64,000 bases of DNA from Oligoflexia bacterium (GTDB lineage Bacteria > Bdellovibrionota > UBA1018 > CAIPTA01): positions 1-64,000 of the forward strand of contig JAMLID010000012.1 in assembly GCA_023954355.1 (NCBI GenBank), in the 5' to 3' direction. Positions 24,347 through 61,405 of the stretch are shown here, one piece after another. Position numbers and translations under genes: made by a program. The stretch's first letter is position 1; each line of letters starts with the position of its first letter. The notes under the pieces were generated by a model. That model was not told the origin of the DNA. It did not search any database and was given only the letters and a program-made list of their open reading frames with translations.

Positions 24347-25075
24347 GTGCCCGATTTAATTTTTGAAAACTCGCGACTGGTAGAAATTTACGATTCTTTT
24401 GATGGTCAACGAAATGACCTGATTCATTATTTATCTCTAGCAAAAGAATTAAACGCCAATTCTATTTTAGACATAGGAAGTGGAACAGGGTGCTTTGCCT
24501 GCATGCTAGCAGAAGAAGGCTTTAAAGTTATCGGCTTAGAACCTGCAGAAGCTTCTCTAAGCTACGCAAAAAAGAAACCTTATGCAAATAAAGTAAATTG
24601 GATTTTAGGAGATGCAACCATGCTCTCTCCAATGAATATAGATTTGGCCATAATGACAGGCAATGTTGCACAAGTGTTTTTAACCGATACTTCTTGGGAA
24701 GAGGTTCTTGTAGGCACTCATAAATCTCTTCGTACAAGCGGTTACTTTGTTTTTGAGGTAAGAGACCCCTCAAAAAAAGCTTGGCTAGATTGGAAAAAAG
24801 AAAAAACATATGGCTGTTTAAATATACCTGATATCGGTAAAGTTGAAAGCTGGTGTGAAGTGCTAAATGTAGCCAATGAATTAGTAAGTTTTCGTTGGAC
24901 CTACGTATTTCACAAAGACAATCAAGTAATCACGTCGGATTCAACTTTGCGCTTTCGCTCCAAAACGTCTATAGAAAACTCATTATGCAAAATGGGATTC
25001 ACAGTAGAAGAAATACGAGATGCACCTGATAGACCTGGCAAAGAGCTCGTCTTCATTACTAAAAAGAATGATTAG
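24347..25075 (+). CDS. Class I SAM-dependent methyltransferase
   Basis: The 242-residue protein has motif I LDIGSGTGCFACMLAEEG (about 41-58), motif II-like VIGLEPAEASLSYAKKK and DLAIMTGNVAQVF, the pattern of small-molecule methyltransferases of the Methyltransf_11/25 type. It starts with GTG; an alternative downstream start is not obvious. Substrate unknown. It follows the acyl-CoA synthetase gene closely and ends at a convergent junction that holds an intergenic palindromic element. Confidence 0.85.
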   Translation: MPDLIFENSRLVEIYDSFDGQRNDLIHYLSLAKELNANSILDIGSGTGCFACMLAEEGFKVIGLEPAEASLSYAKKKPYANKVNWILGDATMLSPMNIDLAIMTGNVAQVFLTDTSWEEVLVGTHKSLRTSGYFVFEVRDPSKKAWLDWKKEKTYGCLNIPDIGKVESWCEVLNVANELVSFRWTYVFHKDNQVITSDSTLRFRSKTSIENSLCKMGFTVEEIRDAPDRPGKELVFITKKND

Positions 25076-25113
25076 TCGATGCCCATTAGATAACATTTTT
25101 CACCATCACACGA

Positions 25114-25232
25114 GGATTTGCAAAATTGCTTGGATCGAGGAAGCATAGCTTGGACAACCGTGAAGCGCCCTTATGGGGCGCTGGAACGGAGGACAAGCAA
25201 GCTGACGCAGAGATTAGCGATTTGGCGAAGCC
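25114..25232 (+). repeat. Intergenic palindromic element, copy A (119 bp)
   Basis: The outer arms (25114-25135 and the reverse complement of the end) match at about 16 of 22 positions. Inside lie GATCGAGG, CCGTGAA, a 7-bp hairpin AGCGCCC/GGGCGCT (25164-25182), GGAACGGAGGACAAGC and GACGCAGAGATT. The core aligns almost base for base with copy B (60740). It fills the gap between two convergent genes and ends six bases before the gdhA stop. Confidence 0.75.
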
Positions 25233-25237
25233 GTATC

Positions 25238-26515
25238 TCAAGGGAAGAGGCCGCGAAGAAGCATCGCCTTCTCTAATCTTAACATCGCTTTCGCCATAGC
25301 AGCTTTTCTCATATCGCATTTTAAGCGTACCGCAGTGTCGTGAACCTCATGAAATGCTTTTACAATTAATGAACGAAGCTTTTCATTGATTTCATCTTCG
25401 TGCCAGAAAAAGCTTTGTATATCTTGAACCCATTCAAAATAACTTACGGTTACACCACCGGCATTGGCTAAAACGTCAGGGACAACAAAAACTCCATTTT
25501 TTACTAAAATACTATGAGCTTCATGAGTGACGGGTCCGTTAGCGCCCTCACTAATTAATTTAGCACGAATTCTATCGGCATTTTTTTCATGAATCACATG
25601 TTCCATAGCGCAAGGTAAAAGAATCTCTACATCTAACTCTAACAGAGCTTCATTCGAAATCTTTTCTGCTTTTGTATACCCCTCAAGAGATCCATTTGTA
25701 GAAACCCACTGCATACAATCACGAATATCTAAACCATTTGCATTATAAATACCGCCAGAAACATCACTCACAGCGACTACGGTACATCCTAAGTCTGCAA
25801 TCTCTCTTGCAGCCACTGCCCCTACTTTACCGAAGCCATGAACCGCGACTTTTGTATTGCTGCTCATAGGTATTTTTAAAATTTTTGCAGCTTCCTCTGC
25901 ACAGTGAACCACGCCCCTACCAGTTGCATCTTCTCTACCTAGAGACCCACCAATATCAATGGGCTTTCCGGTAACTACGCCAGGGATAGCAAAACCTTTC
26001 AACTGAGAAAAAGTGTCCATCAGCCACGCCATTGTCTGCCCATCTGTTCCCACATCTGATGCAGGAATATCTCTATCGGGACCAATCACATTAGCGATTT
26101 CAATCGTATATCTACGAGTTAATGCTTGTTTCTCTGCACGTGACAGCAAATTAGGATTCACGCGAATCCCCCCTTTTGCACCACCTAGAGGCAAACCAAC
26201 AAGAGAGCACTTCATTGTCATCAGAGTGGCCAAAGCTGTAACTTCGGATAATGTTACATCTTGATGGTAACGAATACCTCCCTTACCTGGCCCAAGTGAC
26301 ATATTGTGCTGTACTCGATACCCTTCAAAAACATAGATTGACCCATCGTCCATACGAACTGGGACGCTAACAATCGTACTACGCTTTGGGCGTTTTAAAC
26401 GATCCGCTACGTTTGGATCAATCCCTGCCAACTTGCAACTCTCATCAATAAGTTGAACAACACTTTTAAATAACCCATCTGAATAGTAAACACTGTCTTG
26501 TATTGAACCCGGCAT
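25238..26515 (-). CDS. gdhA: Glutamate dehydrogenase (Glu/Leu/Phe/Val dehydrogenase family)
   Basis: The 425-residue oxidoreductase interconverts glutamate and 2-oxoglutarate plus ammonia. It has YRVQHNMSLGPGKGGIRYH, TMKCSLVGLPLGGAKGGIRVNP (catalytic Lys in PLGGAKGG), DIPASDVGTDGQTMAW (catalytic Asp), the NAD(P) site VHGFGKVGAVAAREI and LANAGGVTVSYFEWVQD. Length fits the hexameric NAD-type GDH. AAGGGGAG precedes the ATG. It may serve amino-acid catabolism, which would suit a predator that feeds on protein. The gene appears to end right at the repeat. Confidence 0.93.
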   Translation of the reverse strand: MPGSIQDSVYYSDGLFKSVVQLIDESCKLAGIDPNVADRLKRPKRSTIVSVPVRMDDGSIYVFEGYRVQHNMSLGPGKGGIRYHQDVTLSEVTALATLMTMKCSLVGLPLGGAKGGIRVNPNLLSRAEKQALTRRYTIEIANVIGPDRDIPASDVGTDGQTMAWLMDTFSQLKGFAIPGVVTGKPIDIGGSLGREDATGRGVVHCAEEAAKILKIPMSSNTKVAVHGFGKVGAVAAREIADLGCTVVAVSDVSGGIYNANGLDIRDCMQWVSTNGSLEGYTKAEKISNEALLELDVEILLPCAMEHVIHEKNADRIRAKLISEGANGPVTHEAHSILVKNGVFVVPDVLANAGGVTVSYFEWVQDIQSFFWHEDEINEKLRSLIVKAFHEVHDTAVRLKCDMRKAAMAKAMLRLEKAMLLRGLFP

Positions 26516-49611: not shown

Positions 49612-50166
49612 ATGAGCATAAAATCAGATAAGTGGATTACAAGAATGTGTAAAGAGTATGGAATGATAGAGCCATACGAAGAAAAACAAGTCAGAAAAGG
49701 GATGATTTCTTATGGAGTATCTAGCTATGGGTACGACATTCGAGTGGCTGATGAATACAAAATTTTCACGAATGTGAACTCAACACTTGTGGATCCAAAA
49801 GACTTTGATAACAGAAATTTTGTTACTATTAATTCTGACCATTGTATTATTCCACCAAACAGTTTCGTATTAGCAAAAACTGTAGAATACTTTCGCATTC
49901 CAAGAAATGTACTTGCTGTTTGTGTTGGTAAAAGCACCTATGCACGCTGCGGTTTAATCGTGAATGTGACCCCGCTAGAACCCGAGTGGGAAGGTATTTT
50001 AACTTTAGAAATTTCAAACACTACACCACTTCCGGCGAAAGTTTATTCTAACGAAGGAGTTGCTCAACTTCTATTCTTTGAAAGCGACGAAGCTTGCGAA
50101 ACCAGCTACAAAGATAAAAGTGGTAAATATATGAAGCAACCAGGACTAACTCTGCCAAAACTATAA
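49612..50166 (+). CDS. dcd: dCTP deaminase
   Basis: The 184-residue trimeric enzyme deaminates dCTP to dUTP. It has [45 protein letters not shown] (catalytic Glu in EPEWEG), a [14 protein letters not shown] and the C-terminal [16 protein letters not shown] that closes over the active site. Length is standard. A GGGAGT lies a few bases upstream of the ATG. The gene ends before a convergent gap holding copy C of the palindromic element. Confidence 0.95.
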
Positions 50167-50224
50167 GTTTGTAGAAGAAGCGGTATCCAAAAAGCATCAC
50201 CTGTATATTTACGCTTAGATTTAA

Positions 50225-50342
50225 GACGTTCAGAAATTTTCAAAATCAAGGCGACGACTGAATAAAGATGTGATCTGGCCTAATTGGCCTGCGGAACATT
50301 TTACGAGGGAGGCAACACAGATTTTGAGAATTTATGGACGTC
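50225..50342 (+). repeat. Intergenic palindromic element, copy C (118 bp)
   Basis: The outer arms GACGTTCAGAAATTTTCAAA and the complement GACGTCCATAAATTCTCAAA pair well. Inside are CAAGGCGACGA (50247-), GGCC/GGCC with a 5-nt loop (50277-50289), GGAACATTTTACGAGGGAGG and CAACACAG. The first arm matches copy B at TTCAGAAAT, yet each copy's arms pair better with themselves than with others. Confidence 0.8.
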
Positions 50343-50353
50343 GTGAAAAGAAA

Positions 50354-50405: not shown

Positions 50406-52181
50406 TTATTCTACAACTTGAACTTTGCTCACTGCGAATCCCCATTTTGTTTGGCTAGAGTCAGTAGTAAAGCGAAGCTTTAATTTATTTCCACTTACAT
50501 AGAAAGACGCAAGATTTTCTGCTTTTCCAGAAATTGCATCCATTTCTTCTCCATTAGCATCTACAACTCTTACGAAGTCGTAACGATCTTCAAGATCAAC
50601 TTTAGAGAAAATCACTCTCATGTATTTTGCATTAGCTGGCCCATCGATTGTCCACTCTTGTGTGAAGCTGTTGTCATAAGGGTGAGCTGATTCAATCGGA
50701 GCAGGTAGAGACATGTCTCTCCAATCACTCTCAGACGGCTCTGGAGATGGAGGATAAATACCATTGATTGCATTATAGATATTTAAACGTCCACCAGATG
50801 CAACTTTTCTAGCAAGATGACCAATAAAGTCTCTTGATCTTAAAAGTCTGTCTTTCACTTCAGACATAGGCATTGAAGAACTTGTTCCCCAAAGTAATGC
50901 TGCAGCTCCAGCTACGTGAGGTGTAGCCATAGATGTTCCACTAAATGTATCATATTGATTACCTGGAATCGTTGAGTAGATCTTATGTCCAGGAGCCGCA
51001 ATATGCACTGTTCTCTTTCCATAAGTAGAGAAAGTGGCCAATGCGTCTGTATTTGTTGTAGCAGCTACAGCAATTACGTTTTCAATTTGATATCCAGCTG
51101 GATAATGCGGGCTTCTATCGCTGTTTGAGCTGTCGTTACCAGCAGCTGCGATAAAAAGTAATCCTTTATCTTTTGCCGCTGTAATTGCATCAAACATGGT
51201 TTGTGTAAATCCACCACCACCCCATGAATTGTTCATCACGTGAGCATTCATAAGAGTCGCATATTGGATCGCCTTAACTGCGTCAGCTAATGTACCGCTT
51301 CCACCACCAGTAAGAAACTTCACTGGTAAGATTGAAGTATTCCAGTTCACACCAGCAACACCTTTTGCATTATTACCCATTCCACCGATTGTTCCTGAAA
51401 CGTGTGTACCGTGGTCGTTATCGTCCATAGGATTGTTATTTGATACACCAGCAAAGTTCCAGCCGTGGAAATCGTCTACAAATCCATTACCGTCGTCATC
51501 GATTCCGTTTGTTTCTTTTCCGTCACCACTCTCACCAGGATTCATATAGATATTGCCTACTAAATCATCATGAGTGTAATCAACACCAGTATCAATAACC
51601 GCTACTAGTACATCTTTATTACCAGTTGTTGTTGTCCAGGCCTTAGTAGCACCAATGTCGGCACCAACTTTACCGGTCTGTCCGCTAGAGTCTTTTTGGC
51701 CAACGTTTTTCATACCCCATAATTTATCGAAATCTGTGTCGTTAGGAAGAACTTCAGAGTCAGCATCTCTATCGCCTAACGCTTTCACAATATAGTTAGG
51801 CTCTGCATACTGAACAGACGGGTTAGATTCCATCTCTTCCATAAAAAAAGCCATGTCTTGGTCGTTATTTAACTTAACCAAATAAAATTCATTGTTTGTT
51901 TCAAACGCTTCAATTGAACGAACGCCAATTCTTGTATTTAAGATTGCATCGAGAGATTGAACTCCAGCTGATGCTTTACCAGCTTTCGACAGTCTTACGA
52001 TCAATTCTGCAGGCGCTCTTTCATGCTGAGCAAGAATCGACTCATACTTAGCCATATCAGAATGTGCTTCAAAGTTAGAGCCTAGAAAAATTCCAGAACT
52101 CACAGCTCCTATTACGGCCATTGGCCATGCCATAGCGGCAATCGAAACTTTCCAGCTTCGATTTTTACGGTTCGATCTCAT
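50406..52181 (-). CDS. Membrane-anchored or secreted subtilisin-like serine protease (S8) with a CUB-like domain
   Basis: The 591-residue protein has an N-terminal hydrophobic segment (about 12-36), an I9-like propeptide (about 58-132, ending YAEPNYIV), a catalytic S8 domain with D197 (VAVIDTGVD), H257 (HGTHVSG), oxyanion Asn349 (AAAGN) and S417 (SGTSMATP), a Ca-binding IDDDGNGFVDD insertion and a C-terminal beta domain of the CUB-like type (VESAHPYDNSF...YDFVRVVDANG...LRFTTDSSQTKWGFAV, with changes). The ATG at 52181 has GGAGGGATATTT upstream. Predatory bacteria of this group often carry several subtilases. Whether it is anchored or cleaved is open. Confidence 0.93.
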   Translation of the reverse strand: MRSNRKNRSWKVSIAAMAWPMAVIGAVSSGIFLGSNFEAHSDMAKYESILAQHERAPAELIVRLSKAGKASAGVQSLDAILNTRIGVRSIEAFETNNEFYLVKLNNDQDMAFFMEEMESNPSVQYAEPNYIVKALGDRDADSEVLPNDTDFDKLWGMKNVGQKDSSGQTGKVGADIGATKAWTTTTGNKDVLVAVIDTGVDYTHDDLVGNIYMNPGESGDGKETNGIDDDGNGFVDDFHGWNFAGVSNNNPMDDNDHGTHVSGTIGGMGNNAKGVAGVNWNTSILPVKFLTGGGSGTLADAVKAIQYATLMNAHVMNNSWGGGGFTQTMFDAITAAKDKGLLFIAAAGNDSSNSDRSPHYPAGYQIENVIAVAATTNTDALATFSTYGKRTVHIAAPGHKIYSTIPGNQYDTFSGTSMATPHVAGAAALLWGTSSSMPMSEVKDRLLRSRDFIGHLARKVASGGRLNIYNAINGIYPPSPEPSESDWRDMSLPAPIESAHPYDNSFTQEWTIDGPANAKYMRVIFSKVDLEDRYDFVRVVDANGEEMDAISGKAENLASFYVSGNKLKLRFTTDSSQTKWGFAVSKVQVVE

Positions 52182-52544
52182 AAATATCCCTCCATCGTAG
52201 TGATCGTTGCCCAATCCCTGGACCCATCATTTACGAACCGCCGAAAAAACTTCTTTAGACAGTAGCAAACGACTCCGGTGTTATAAAATGCTATCACCGA
52301 GAAAAATAAACACAAAAATAATTTTAAAAATTACAATAGCGTGTTGACATAGTCATATAATAAATATAAGCGCTTTGCGTCAATATCATTATTCGGCCAC
52401 TTGTCTTTACGGCCTCCATTAGAAGAAGATACCCAAACGCACTATAAAGTTTTGTCTTTAATTCATTCTCTCGCTCAACCTTAAGTGATTGCACTATTTT
52501 TTTTGCTAGACCCCCTAGTGCAGACCCCCTACATTAGAAAAGTC
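52182..52544. other. Divergent intergenic region between the S8 protease and rnr
   Basis: The 363-bp AT-rich gap contains the protease leader with its Shine-Dalgarno, an imperfect hairpin CGGTG...CACCG (52274-52297), a palindromic AATTTTTAAAATT block and a TTGACA/TATAAG promoter for rnr. Nothing else coding is convincing; the in-frame GTG at 52485 is a possible but less likely rnr start. Confidence 0.5.
52344..52370 (+). promoter_or_regulatory. Possible rnr promoter
   Basis: TTGACA (52344-52349) and TATAAG (52365-52370) are 15 bases apart, a little short, with other TATAAT-like hexamers in between. The leader would be about 170 bases to the rnr ATG. Confidence 0.4.
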
Positions 52545-59752: not shown

Positions 59753-60679
59753 ATGTTTAAACCAAAAGTTTTTATAAGTGGAATTAGTGGATTTTTAGGT
59801 CAAAGCTTAGCACAAGCACTTCAAAAAGATTTTCTTGTCACTGGATGCTATTTTAGTAATCCCATACGAGTTCCCAATACACAAATCTTCCCTATTAACC
59901 CAAAGAATCCTGAAGTTTTAGAAACTATCGTAAGACTACAGGCACCAGATTTTATTATTAATGCATCTGGAATTCACGATAGAAAAAAAATAGATGATCA
60001 ACCAAAACTTTCAGATCAAATAAACATAGTAGAGCCTGTTAGCTTGGCAATACTTAGCCACAAGATACACGCAAAATTTATTCAAATTTCTTGCTCTTCT
60101 ATATTTGATGGTTCGCAAGGAAACTATAGAGAAAAAGATACCTCGTTCACTATGGACGATTCTTTAGGAAAACAAAAAATAGCCGCTGAAAGTTTTATTC
60201 GAGCTCAAACCATAGAAAGTACAATACTTAGAGTTGGCTCTGTTGTAGGCGCTGGACCAGGATTCAGAAATACAAAATTCGATTCTATTAGAAAAAAAAT
60301 AGCTAAAAATGAATCCATAGAAATATCCCATAAAAAAATTCATTCTTTTTTATCTTCAATTTCTTTCGCTCAAGGTATTCGCTATATATTATTAGGTCAA
60401 TTCCCTACCAAACACAGAATATTTCACCTTGGCGGAGCTAAAATAACAGAGGCTGATTTCGTAAAAAATTGGCTTCGTATTATAAATAAAACAGAAATAA
60501 AACTACACCCCCCGGAAGAAGATAAGGCTAAAAATCTATCTCTAGACTCAAGCCTATTCGAAGAAGTTTTCTCTCCTTGGAAAGCTGAAAGTCAAGAACA
60601 GCTTTATTTAAATTTAATTTCTTCTCTGGCTCCTGGATTAGATCAAAAAAAATTTATTCCTAAGAATCTATCATTCTAA
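59753..60679 (+). CDS. RmlD-like NAD(P)-dependent sugar reductase/epimerase with a changed active site
   Basis: The 308-residue short-chain dehydrogenase fold has an N-terminal ISGISGFLGQSLAQAL nucleotide loop, FIINASGIHDRK and ISCSSIFDGSQGNYREKD, matching RmlD-type dTDP-4-dehydrorhamnose reductases. The catalytic YxxxK is altered: SLGKQK has Leu138 where Tyr is expected, while K142 remains. It may be inactive, use another residue or have another function. It begins right after the flagellin terminator with no ribosome-binding site. A role in flagellin glycosylation is possible by location only. Confidence 0.75.
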   Translation: MFKPKVFISGISGFLGQSLAQALQKDFLVTGCYFSNPIRVPNTQIFPINPKNPEVLETIVRLQAPDFIINASGIHDRKKIDDQPKLSDQINIVEPVSLAILSHKIHAKFIQISCSSIFDGSQGNYREKDTSFTMDDSLGKQKIAAESFIRAQTIESTILRVGSVVGAGPGFRNTKFDSIRKKIAKNESIEISHKKIHSFLSSISFAQGIRYILLGQFPTKHRIFHLGGAKITEADFVKNWLRIINKTEIKLHPPEEDKAKNLSLDSSLFEEVFSPWKAESQEQLYLNLISSLAPGLDQKKFIPKNLSF

Positions 60680-60707: not shown

Positions 60708-60730
60708 ACAGAGATTGAACATTTATGAAT
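60708..60730 (+). repeat. Truncated extra copy of the element B right end
   Basis: The 23 bases ACAGAGATTGAACATTTATG plus AAT occur here and again, exactly, at 60832-60854 at the end of element B. The bases before this (GAGAGGCTGGGAAAGAC) recall the region before CAACACAG in other copies. This looks like a remnant of a tandem copy. Confidence 0.6.
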
Positions 60731-60739
60731 ATAAATCTA

Positions 60740-60857
60740 GGCATTCAGAAATGCTTCAAGATCAAGGCATCGAGCGCGAGCTACCGTGAATCGTGCTACT
60801 GCACGATGGAACGGAGAACAAGCGAGATAACACAGAGATTGAACATTTATGAATGCC
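60740..60857 (+). repeat. Intergenic palindromic element, copy B (118 bp)
   Basis: The outer arms GGCATTCAGAAATG and the complement GGCATTCATAAATG pair nearly perfectly. Inside are GATCAAGGCATCGAGCGCGA, CTACCGTGAA, a 7-bp hairpin ATCGTGC/GCACGAT (60790-60807), GGAACGGAGAACAAGC and AACACAGAGATTGAA. It lies in the convergent gap and stops two bases before the stop codon of the minus-strand gene. Confidence 0.8.
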
Positions 60858-60859
60858 GT

Positions 60860-61405
60860 CTAAAAAATGGCAGATGATTTAACAAAGTCAGTAAACAAAT
60901 ACCTAACAACAGCTTCCACATCAATTCTCTCGCCATGAAATGTCCAAGCTAAATCATTGAATGGATATAATTGAGCTATAAGATCATAACCTTCTCTTTT
61001 TGTTTTGACTGGTGCCTTAGAAAAAGTATTTGCACGATTTACGAACGAAAAATTCACTACACCTAAAGCAGGATTAGAAATAACGAGCTTTAAGGTGTTC
61101 CTAAAAATAATAAAATCAGCTTGAGTATTTGAAATATTAAAAATTTTAATAGAGTTCGGTAAATGAGATCCGCCTCTATATGAATTGAATAGGTCAACGC
61201 ACTTTAGAAATTCTTCTTTTAGGTTAAACATAAATTCAAGAGTAGCTTCTTCAACTACTTTTTTATGATCTTGGTGGCTAACAAAGTCTCCAGAGCCCGT
61301 CTTTAGCAATTCAACCTCATTATCCACTAGTCGCTTAAGCCAATTTGCATCTTTACCAGTAGATACCATATTGATTCTTCTTGGGACTTGAATTTCTTGC
61401 TGCAT
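60860..61405 (-). CDS. Unknown cytosolic protein
   Basis: The 181-residue protein begins MQQEIQVPRRINMVSTGKDA after a good Shine-Dalgarno (GAAGGAG). The middle has NSIKIFNISNTQADFIIFRNTLKLVISNPALGVVNFSFVNRAN in pieces, and the end EAVVRYLFTDFVKSSAIF. No signal peptide. The pattern of short beta strands with a basic start does not match a family known to me. It is not coupled to ybeY. Confidence 0.65.
   Translation of the reverse strand: MQQEIQVPRRINMVSTGKDANWLKRLVDNEVELLKTGSGDFVSHQDHKKVVEEATLEFMFNLKEEFLKCVDLFNSYRGGSHLPNSIKIFNISNTQADFIIFRNTLKLVISNPALGVVNFSFVNRANTFSKAPVKTKREGYDLIAQLYPFNDLAWTFHGERIDVEAVVRYLFTDFVKSSAIF

Follow-up and report, generated by a model that had tools for sequence, protein, structure and literature searches.

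Palindromic elements of ~118 nt in the Bdellovibrionota: covarying hairpins beside stop codons with an orientation that follows the replication fork

What kind of element is an intergenic palindrome of ~118 nt whose arms differ from copy to copy and yet pair with each other within each copy? The question is raised by a stretch of 64,000 nucleotides from an Oligoflexia bacterium (contig JAMLID010000012.1 of assembly GCA_023954355.1), here called the window, for which an earlier note, made from the letters alone, had described three such elements (copies A, B and C) of common layout and orientation. All three were recovered with a covariance model at the positions given in Table 1, and all lie on the + strand. 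The fourth copy of which that note spoke is not present in the window as a full element; there is only a 23-nt duplicate of the 3' arm of copy B (R in Table 1), which precedes the 5' foot of copy B by 6 nt, was equalled in quality by none of 200 shuffles, and is read as a 5'-truncated preceding copy. Going beyond that earlier description, the present analysis reports the adjacency of the element to stop codons, its coupling to replication, which of its strands folds, the breadth of the family, and signs of its gain and loss.

Table 1. Copies of the element in the window and the genes beside them; gene calls, here and throughout, are longest open frames
Feature	Position	Strand	Basis or remark
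Upstream convergent neighbour of copy A	24347..25075	+	ORF list; ends 36 nt before copy A
Copy A	25111..25237	+	R1 covariance-model match, 108 bits, E 1e-24
Glu/Leu/Phe/Val dehydrogenase gene, host of copy A	25238..26515	-	ORF list; Pfam ELFV_dehydrog PF00208, E 2e-77
Upstream convergent neighbour of copy C	49612..50166	+	ORF list
Copy C (element studied)	50222..50347	+	R1 match, 114 bits, E 4e-26
Subtilase gene, antisense neighbour of copy C	50406..52214	-	ORF list; Pfam
Upstream convergent neighbour of copy B	59753..60679	+	ORF list
R, extra copy of the 3' arm of copy B, ACAGAGATTGAACATTTATGAAT	60708..60730	+	identical 23-mer
Copy B	60737..60862	+	R1 match, 129 bits, E 4e-30
Host gene of copy B, 181 aa	60860..61405	-	ORF list

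Architecture of the hairpin and breadth of the family

Each copy forms a single long interrupted hairpin of ~118 nt. It starts with an outer stem of ~20 bp, whose sequence differs between copies and which in copies A, B and C is interrupted by a mismatch at a constant position. Next comes an internal loop, in which CAAGG of the 5' half faces AACGCAG (or AACGAAG) of the 3' half, then a variable middle stem, and finally an apical hairpin, at the base of which GTGA stands opposite GGAAC. Eight copies from the genome to which the window belongs were aligned with MAFFT, without fitting to the structure; standard pairs occupy 94.2% of the cells, as compared with 26.6-38.8% when the partners are slid by one to three columns, and double changes are found at 23 of the 35 pairs, a number that none of 500 shuffles reached. 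With 29 copies from several genomes, 93.6% of the cells are paired and double changes are found at 33 of the 35 pairs; since this second alignment was fitted to the structure, the eight-copy alignment provides the cleaner test of covariation. Both data sets support the earlier inference that arms which vary while keeping their pairing reflect selection on structure, be it in DNA or in RNA.

The two strands of a palindrome can be told apart by their wobble pairs. When the stems are read on the strand on which the element is written, 44 G.T pairs stand against 10 A.C pairs, and with the register chosen from Watson-Crick pairs only, the numbers are 135 against 13. It should be noted that p-values for these counts overstate the case because the copies are related to each other; the direction is still clear, and the folding strand is therefore the element (written) strand. 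This excess of G.T pairs is the opposite of what deamination on an exposed lagging-strand template would be expected to leave behind. Individual copies depart from the common architecture: one of them (L029; G000:C12:99531-99722) carries in its apical part an insertion of ~65 nt with a hairpin of its own, and two others (L078, G000:C24:36929-37052; L041, G001:C119:6939-7065) have nearly perfect arms and adjoin a tRNA-like sequence, possibly representing a subtype.

The earlier note had suggested a covariance-model search of the genome, and had named the lack of further copies, or copies with arms that no longer pair, as grounds for abandoning its reading. This search has been run, further copies were found, and their arms pair, so that neither ground remains. 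In the genome of the window (3.15 Mb), model R1, built from eight copies, gives 23 matches at E<1e-5, among them head-to-tail arrays of four and of two elements, and model R2, built from 29 copies, gives 26 at E<1e-3, the weakest few of which are degraded; at least 21 copies in this genome are strong. The E-values of these models are rough. Within the Bdellovibrionota, R2 detected the element in 92 of 369 genomes, in a search that scored nine candidates per genome, so that the counts for single genomes saturate and are to be read as minimum values. Five genomes searched in depth hold 21, 35, 24, 16 and 16 copies, and G191, with 35, is the copy-richest genome examined.

The family also extends to a second phylum. 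A pattern scan turned up L046, a clear homologue, in an entry labelled Bacillota bacterium; the genome in question has six copies, and matches were obtained in seven of the other ~299 genomes of that phylum that were searched, all strong ones with the same internal loops. Of six contig matches from the pattern scan, five are incomplete in their architecture and are taken to be fortuitous. At one further locus of the family (L242 1501-1990; G561:C9:74126-74615), three tandem copies follow each other with a period of 182 bp, each of them succeeded by a second, different hairpin.

No match to Rfam 15 was found over the window at the gathering score, and a relaxed search with eight loci (E<=1) brought up no credible one; plasmid and phage collections contained no match to the element either. 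A literature search for the arm oligomer returned one unrelated paper that contains it, and no published description of this hairpin family was found in a search that did not cover subscription journals or preprints, so a prior description is not excluded.

Placement behind stop codons and orientation with the replication fork

The 3' foot of copy A abuts the TGA stop codon (25238-25240) of an antisense glutamate-dehydrogenase-type gene, while the final three bases of copy B, CTA (60860-60862), are the TAG stop codon of an antisense gene whose protein had no match in a Pfam search. At copy C, the stop codon of the antisense gene lies ~59 nt beyond the 3' foot, with a terminator-like hairpin in between; within the window, stop adjacency is true of A and B and not of C. 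In the genome as a whole, 16 of the 21 copies tested have their 3' foot at -8 to +4 nt from the stop codon of the gene on the opposite strand, where 2.1 are expected when elements are placed at random within the same gap, and so do 47 of 79 copies in three Bdellovibrio genomes (10.2 expected under the same null). The 5' foot is near a stop codon in none of the copies from the genome of the window and in one Bdellovibrio copy. The adjacency observed is hence one-sided.

The host genes are ordinary chromosomal genes, with products such as a glutamate-type dehydrogenase, RelA/SpoT, NifU, AhpC/TSA and an aminotransferase as judged by Pfam, and in G001 also SAHH and phosphofructokinase (PFK); the proteins that they encode look as if they end at their native C-termini. 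A TAA or TAG trinucleotide serving as a plain sequence target was considered and is not claimed: by eye, copies far from stop codons carry TAA/TAG no more often than chance would have it. In E. coli, REPs often lie at most 15 nt from a stop codon and are reported to stall ribosomes there (PMC12306157). Adjacency alone is therefore not new, and it is its tightness and one-sidedness that are.

The orientation of the element is locked to replication. In three complete genomes (G190, G191, G203), each with dnaA-dnaN-recF at coordinate 1 and a GC skew of the expected sign, all 80 of the 80 model-detected copies are oriented by fork direction, lying on the - strand in the rightward-replicated part and on the + strand in the leftward-replicated part. 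In seven further genomes, for which dnaA was located independently, 53 of the 55 matches listed fit the orientation predicted from the position of dnaA (G198, 9/9; G200, 10/10; G197, 4/4; G193, 9/10; G196, 9/10; G205, 9/9; G202, 3/3); the count was made by hand on the top matches and does not cover every copy. The two misses both come from the second element of a pair on opposite strands, seemingly the same pair in G193 and G196. In these pairs (L073 1501-1912 and L262 1494-1848, respectively), the two elements lie ~100-160 bp apart, and one member always breaks the replication rule. A degraded copy in G203 (2973318), detected by blastn only, is another exception. The L078 copy mentioned above also departs from the GC-skew rule.

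In G209, the GC skew of which is scrambled, the copies follow the local skew in four of five cases. The + strand of the window has a GC skew of -0.083, with which the + orientation of copies A, B and C is consistent, and in the genome of the window 18 of 22 copies agree with the local GC skew. Only ~66% of the genes near copies are codirectional with the fork (198 versus 101), and the orientation of genes alone thus cannot yield that of the elements. The strand that folds is the leading-strand template, complementary to the nascent leading strand. As a separate observation, no copy comes closer to the origin than roughly 110-330 kb in G190, G191 and G203.

Gain and loss of copies, and the search for a mobilizing enzyme

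Sites with and without the element can be compared at one locus, L072. In G200 and G206, the element there separates the stop codon of a gene from a terminator, and at the orthologous sites of G205, G203, G210 and G190 the stop codon and the terminator are kept and the element is absent; the flanks of these element-free sites are too diverged to reveal the exact insertion junction. Host genes mostly differ between species. A few are common to G190, G191 and G203, so that some copies may be ancient ones that were simply retained. Near-identical copies are observed as well: G001 has four of them, with compensating changes in their arms, and G369 carries an identical element on two contigs with different downstream flanks. 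In the genome of the window, an extra piece of a copy's own 3' arm lies just upstream in 7 of 22 copies, and never downstream. No consistent target-site duplication was seen; 15% of 80 copies are flanked by TA on both sides, and the feature is clear in some copies only.

The enzyme that would mobilize the element was not found. Y1_Tnp is widespread among the genomes but is not listed for G191, and only one of the Y1 loci examined adjoins an element. There, in G203 (L209 1794-2549; 3040896-3041651), a Y1 transposase-like gene of ~188 aa lies directly upstream of two tandem elements; fragments of this gene occur at the orthologous places of G205 and G202, and at that of G205 (L212) the element is deleted. 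The genome of the window encodes one IS200-type TnpA (152 aa; L222, G000:C79:77903-78262), beside which no element was found. RVT_1 is present in 4 of 20 element-bearing genomes and absent from 16; the reverse transcriptase that a group II intron or retroelement would require is lacking in most of them. Neither a dedicated Y1 transposase nor a reverse transcriptase is supported as the partner of the element.

A mobile hairpin or a site kept by the host

The explanation that we propose, and to which we give an even chance, is that the family consists of small, non-autonomous, REP-like mobile hairpins that are recognized by shape, are processed as single-stranded DNA at the fork, are placed at stop codons, and owe their orientation to the fork. 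A DNA hairpin of ~118 nt would spread at replication forks via a single-stranded intermediate, as REP elements do; its written strand would fold, and an unidentified protein would recognize the shape of the hairpin rather than the sequence of its arms. New copies would land immediately 3' of a gene's stop codon, inserted such that the folding strand becomes the template of the leading strand and complements the nascent one. The orientation may be fixed at insertion, or may result from the loss of copies in the other orientation, in which the folding strand would be part of the exposed lagging-strand template, and the data do not separate these possibilities. The proposal starts from what was observed (the covarying hairpin and its folding strand, the one-sided stop adjacency, the replication-locked orientation, the element-free orthologous sites, and the tandem and 5'-truncated copies), while it is inferred that the element moves as single-stranded DNA, that an enzyme recognizes its shape, and that insertion or loss sets its orientation. 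About half of the Bdellovibrio copies have no same-strand gene upstream, and some copies sit behind the terminator of the upstream gene; read-through RNA is therefore not generally available, from which we infer that DNA is favoured over RNA.

REP and REPIN elements, which are associated with RAYTs, are palindromes of 20-40 bp with a GTAG (or CGTC) tetranucleotide at the foot. The present element resembles them, and BIMEs, as a short non-coding intergenic palindrome of many copies that stands after genes, sometimes near their stop codons, and mobility as single-stranded DNA has been proposed for both. Its mobilization in trans by a RAYT (Y1 HuH) transposase would account for this palindromic, intergenic and gene-end placement, which many E. 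coli REPs share, and could draw on the Y1 gene beside the tandem elements of G203 and its fragments elsewhere. We nevertheless consider this rather unlikely: the element is far longer, has conserved internal loops and freely varying arms, lacks a GTAG tag, is locked to replication and one-sided in its stop adjacency, and has no consistent RAYT partner, with a single adjoining Y1 locus among those examined and no Y1_Tnp match in the copy-richest genome. Moreover, known Y1 (IS200/IS605-type) elements act on the lagging-strand template, the one opposite to that on which the present element folds. The element is like IS200/IS605 in its coupling to replication direction, its one-sided target specificity and, by inference, hairpin recognition on single-stranded DNA, but it has no ORF and no demonstrated Y1 partner. 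CGTC-tagged REPs, which are mainly alphaproteobacterial, are palindromes, one end of which carries an unpaired tag, and have no known dedicated transposase (Di Nocera 2013, PMC3733652). Many Bdellovibrio copies of our palindrome likewise have a 3' tail of CGNC; yet the element is three to six times longer than these REPs, and its tag is weak, with no fixed form in G000 or G001 and none at all in the latter.

A functional site maintained by the host, with a polarity imposed by replication (for protein binding or fork handling at gene ends) and selected rather than selfish, would fit the near-perfect coupling of orientation, the conservation of the internal loops over long distances, the few host genes common to species, and the copies in the rearranged G209 that track local skew. 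Copy number and location, however, vary strongly among species of one genus, near-identical recent copies exist in G001 and G369 alongside tandem and truncated ones, and most genomes of the phylum lack the element, which leaves such a site with a low probability in our judgement. Lower still is that of an RNA-mediated element, in which an RNA of the + strand would be copied and inserted beside the stop codon with the nascent strand as primer. The wobble pairs do point to the + strand, and the precise 3' end, the variable 5' side and the extra truncated copies, which keep the 3' end and are always upstream, are reminiscent of 5'-truncated retrotransposition; an RVT_1 protein is, however, missing from most copy-rich genomes, no promoter is obvious, and about half of the copies would have no read-through to rely on. 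That the element is an ordinary transcription terminator, or a 3'-UTR stabilizer of the neighbouring genes, is suggested by a stable hairpin directly after stop codons but appears very improbable, as TTTT follows the hairpin in only 4% of the Bdellovibrio copies, separate terminators are visible beside some copies, the folding strand is antisense to the gene that precedes the element, and the replication polarity would remain unexplained.

Two further classes of palindromes were rejected. Integron attC sites are like the element in length, in forming imperfect palindromes whose arms vary and in their place just after stop codons, and shape recognition, inferred for the element, is a further likeness; the element differs in that no R boxes (RYYYAAC / GTTRRRY) are seen by eye at its ends, there is no cassette array, and its hosts are core chromosomal genes with native-looking ends, which argues against integron cassettes (integron integrase was outside the search). 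The ERIC, Correia and RUP MITEs are intergenic palindromes of ~100-150 bp with conserved terminal repeats and TA duplications, whereas the arms of the present element vary from copy to copy and TA flanks are clear in some copies only.

Returning to the mobile hairpin as the preferred explanation, its widest form is that of a previously unrecognized class of shape-recognized mobile hairpins, present in at least two phyla, which insert at the stop codons of genes moving with the fork, are tied to fork direction, and are served by an enzyme outside both the known Y1 transposases and the reverse transcriptases; in this form it is a tentative suggestion that may well prove wrong. If the preferred explanation is right, these genomes offer a clean natural archive of how elements are inserted or retained strand-specifically at the fork, with dozens of copies per genome and an orientation predictable from the position of dnaA. 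It would also join two puzzles that are mostly considered separately, that of palindromic repeats beside stop codons and that of the spread of short hairpins that carry no gene. Twenty-one copies appear to be present in B. bacteriovorus HD100 (the identity of this genome is inferred), which would make the idea testable in a culturable bacterium.
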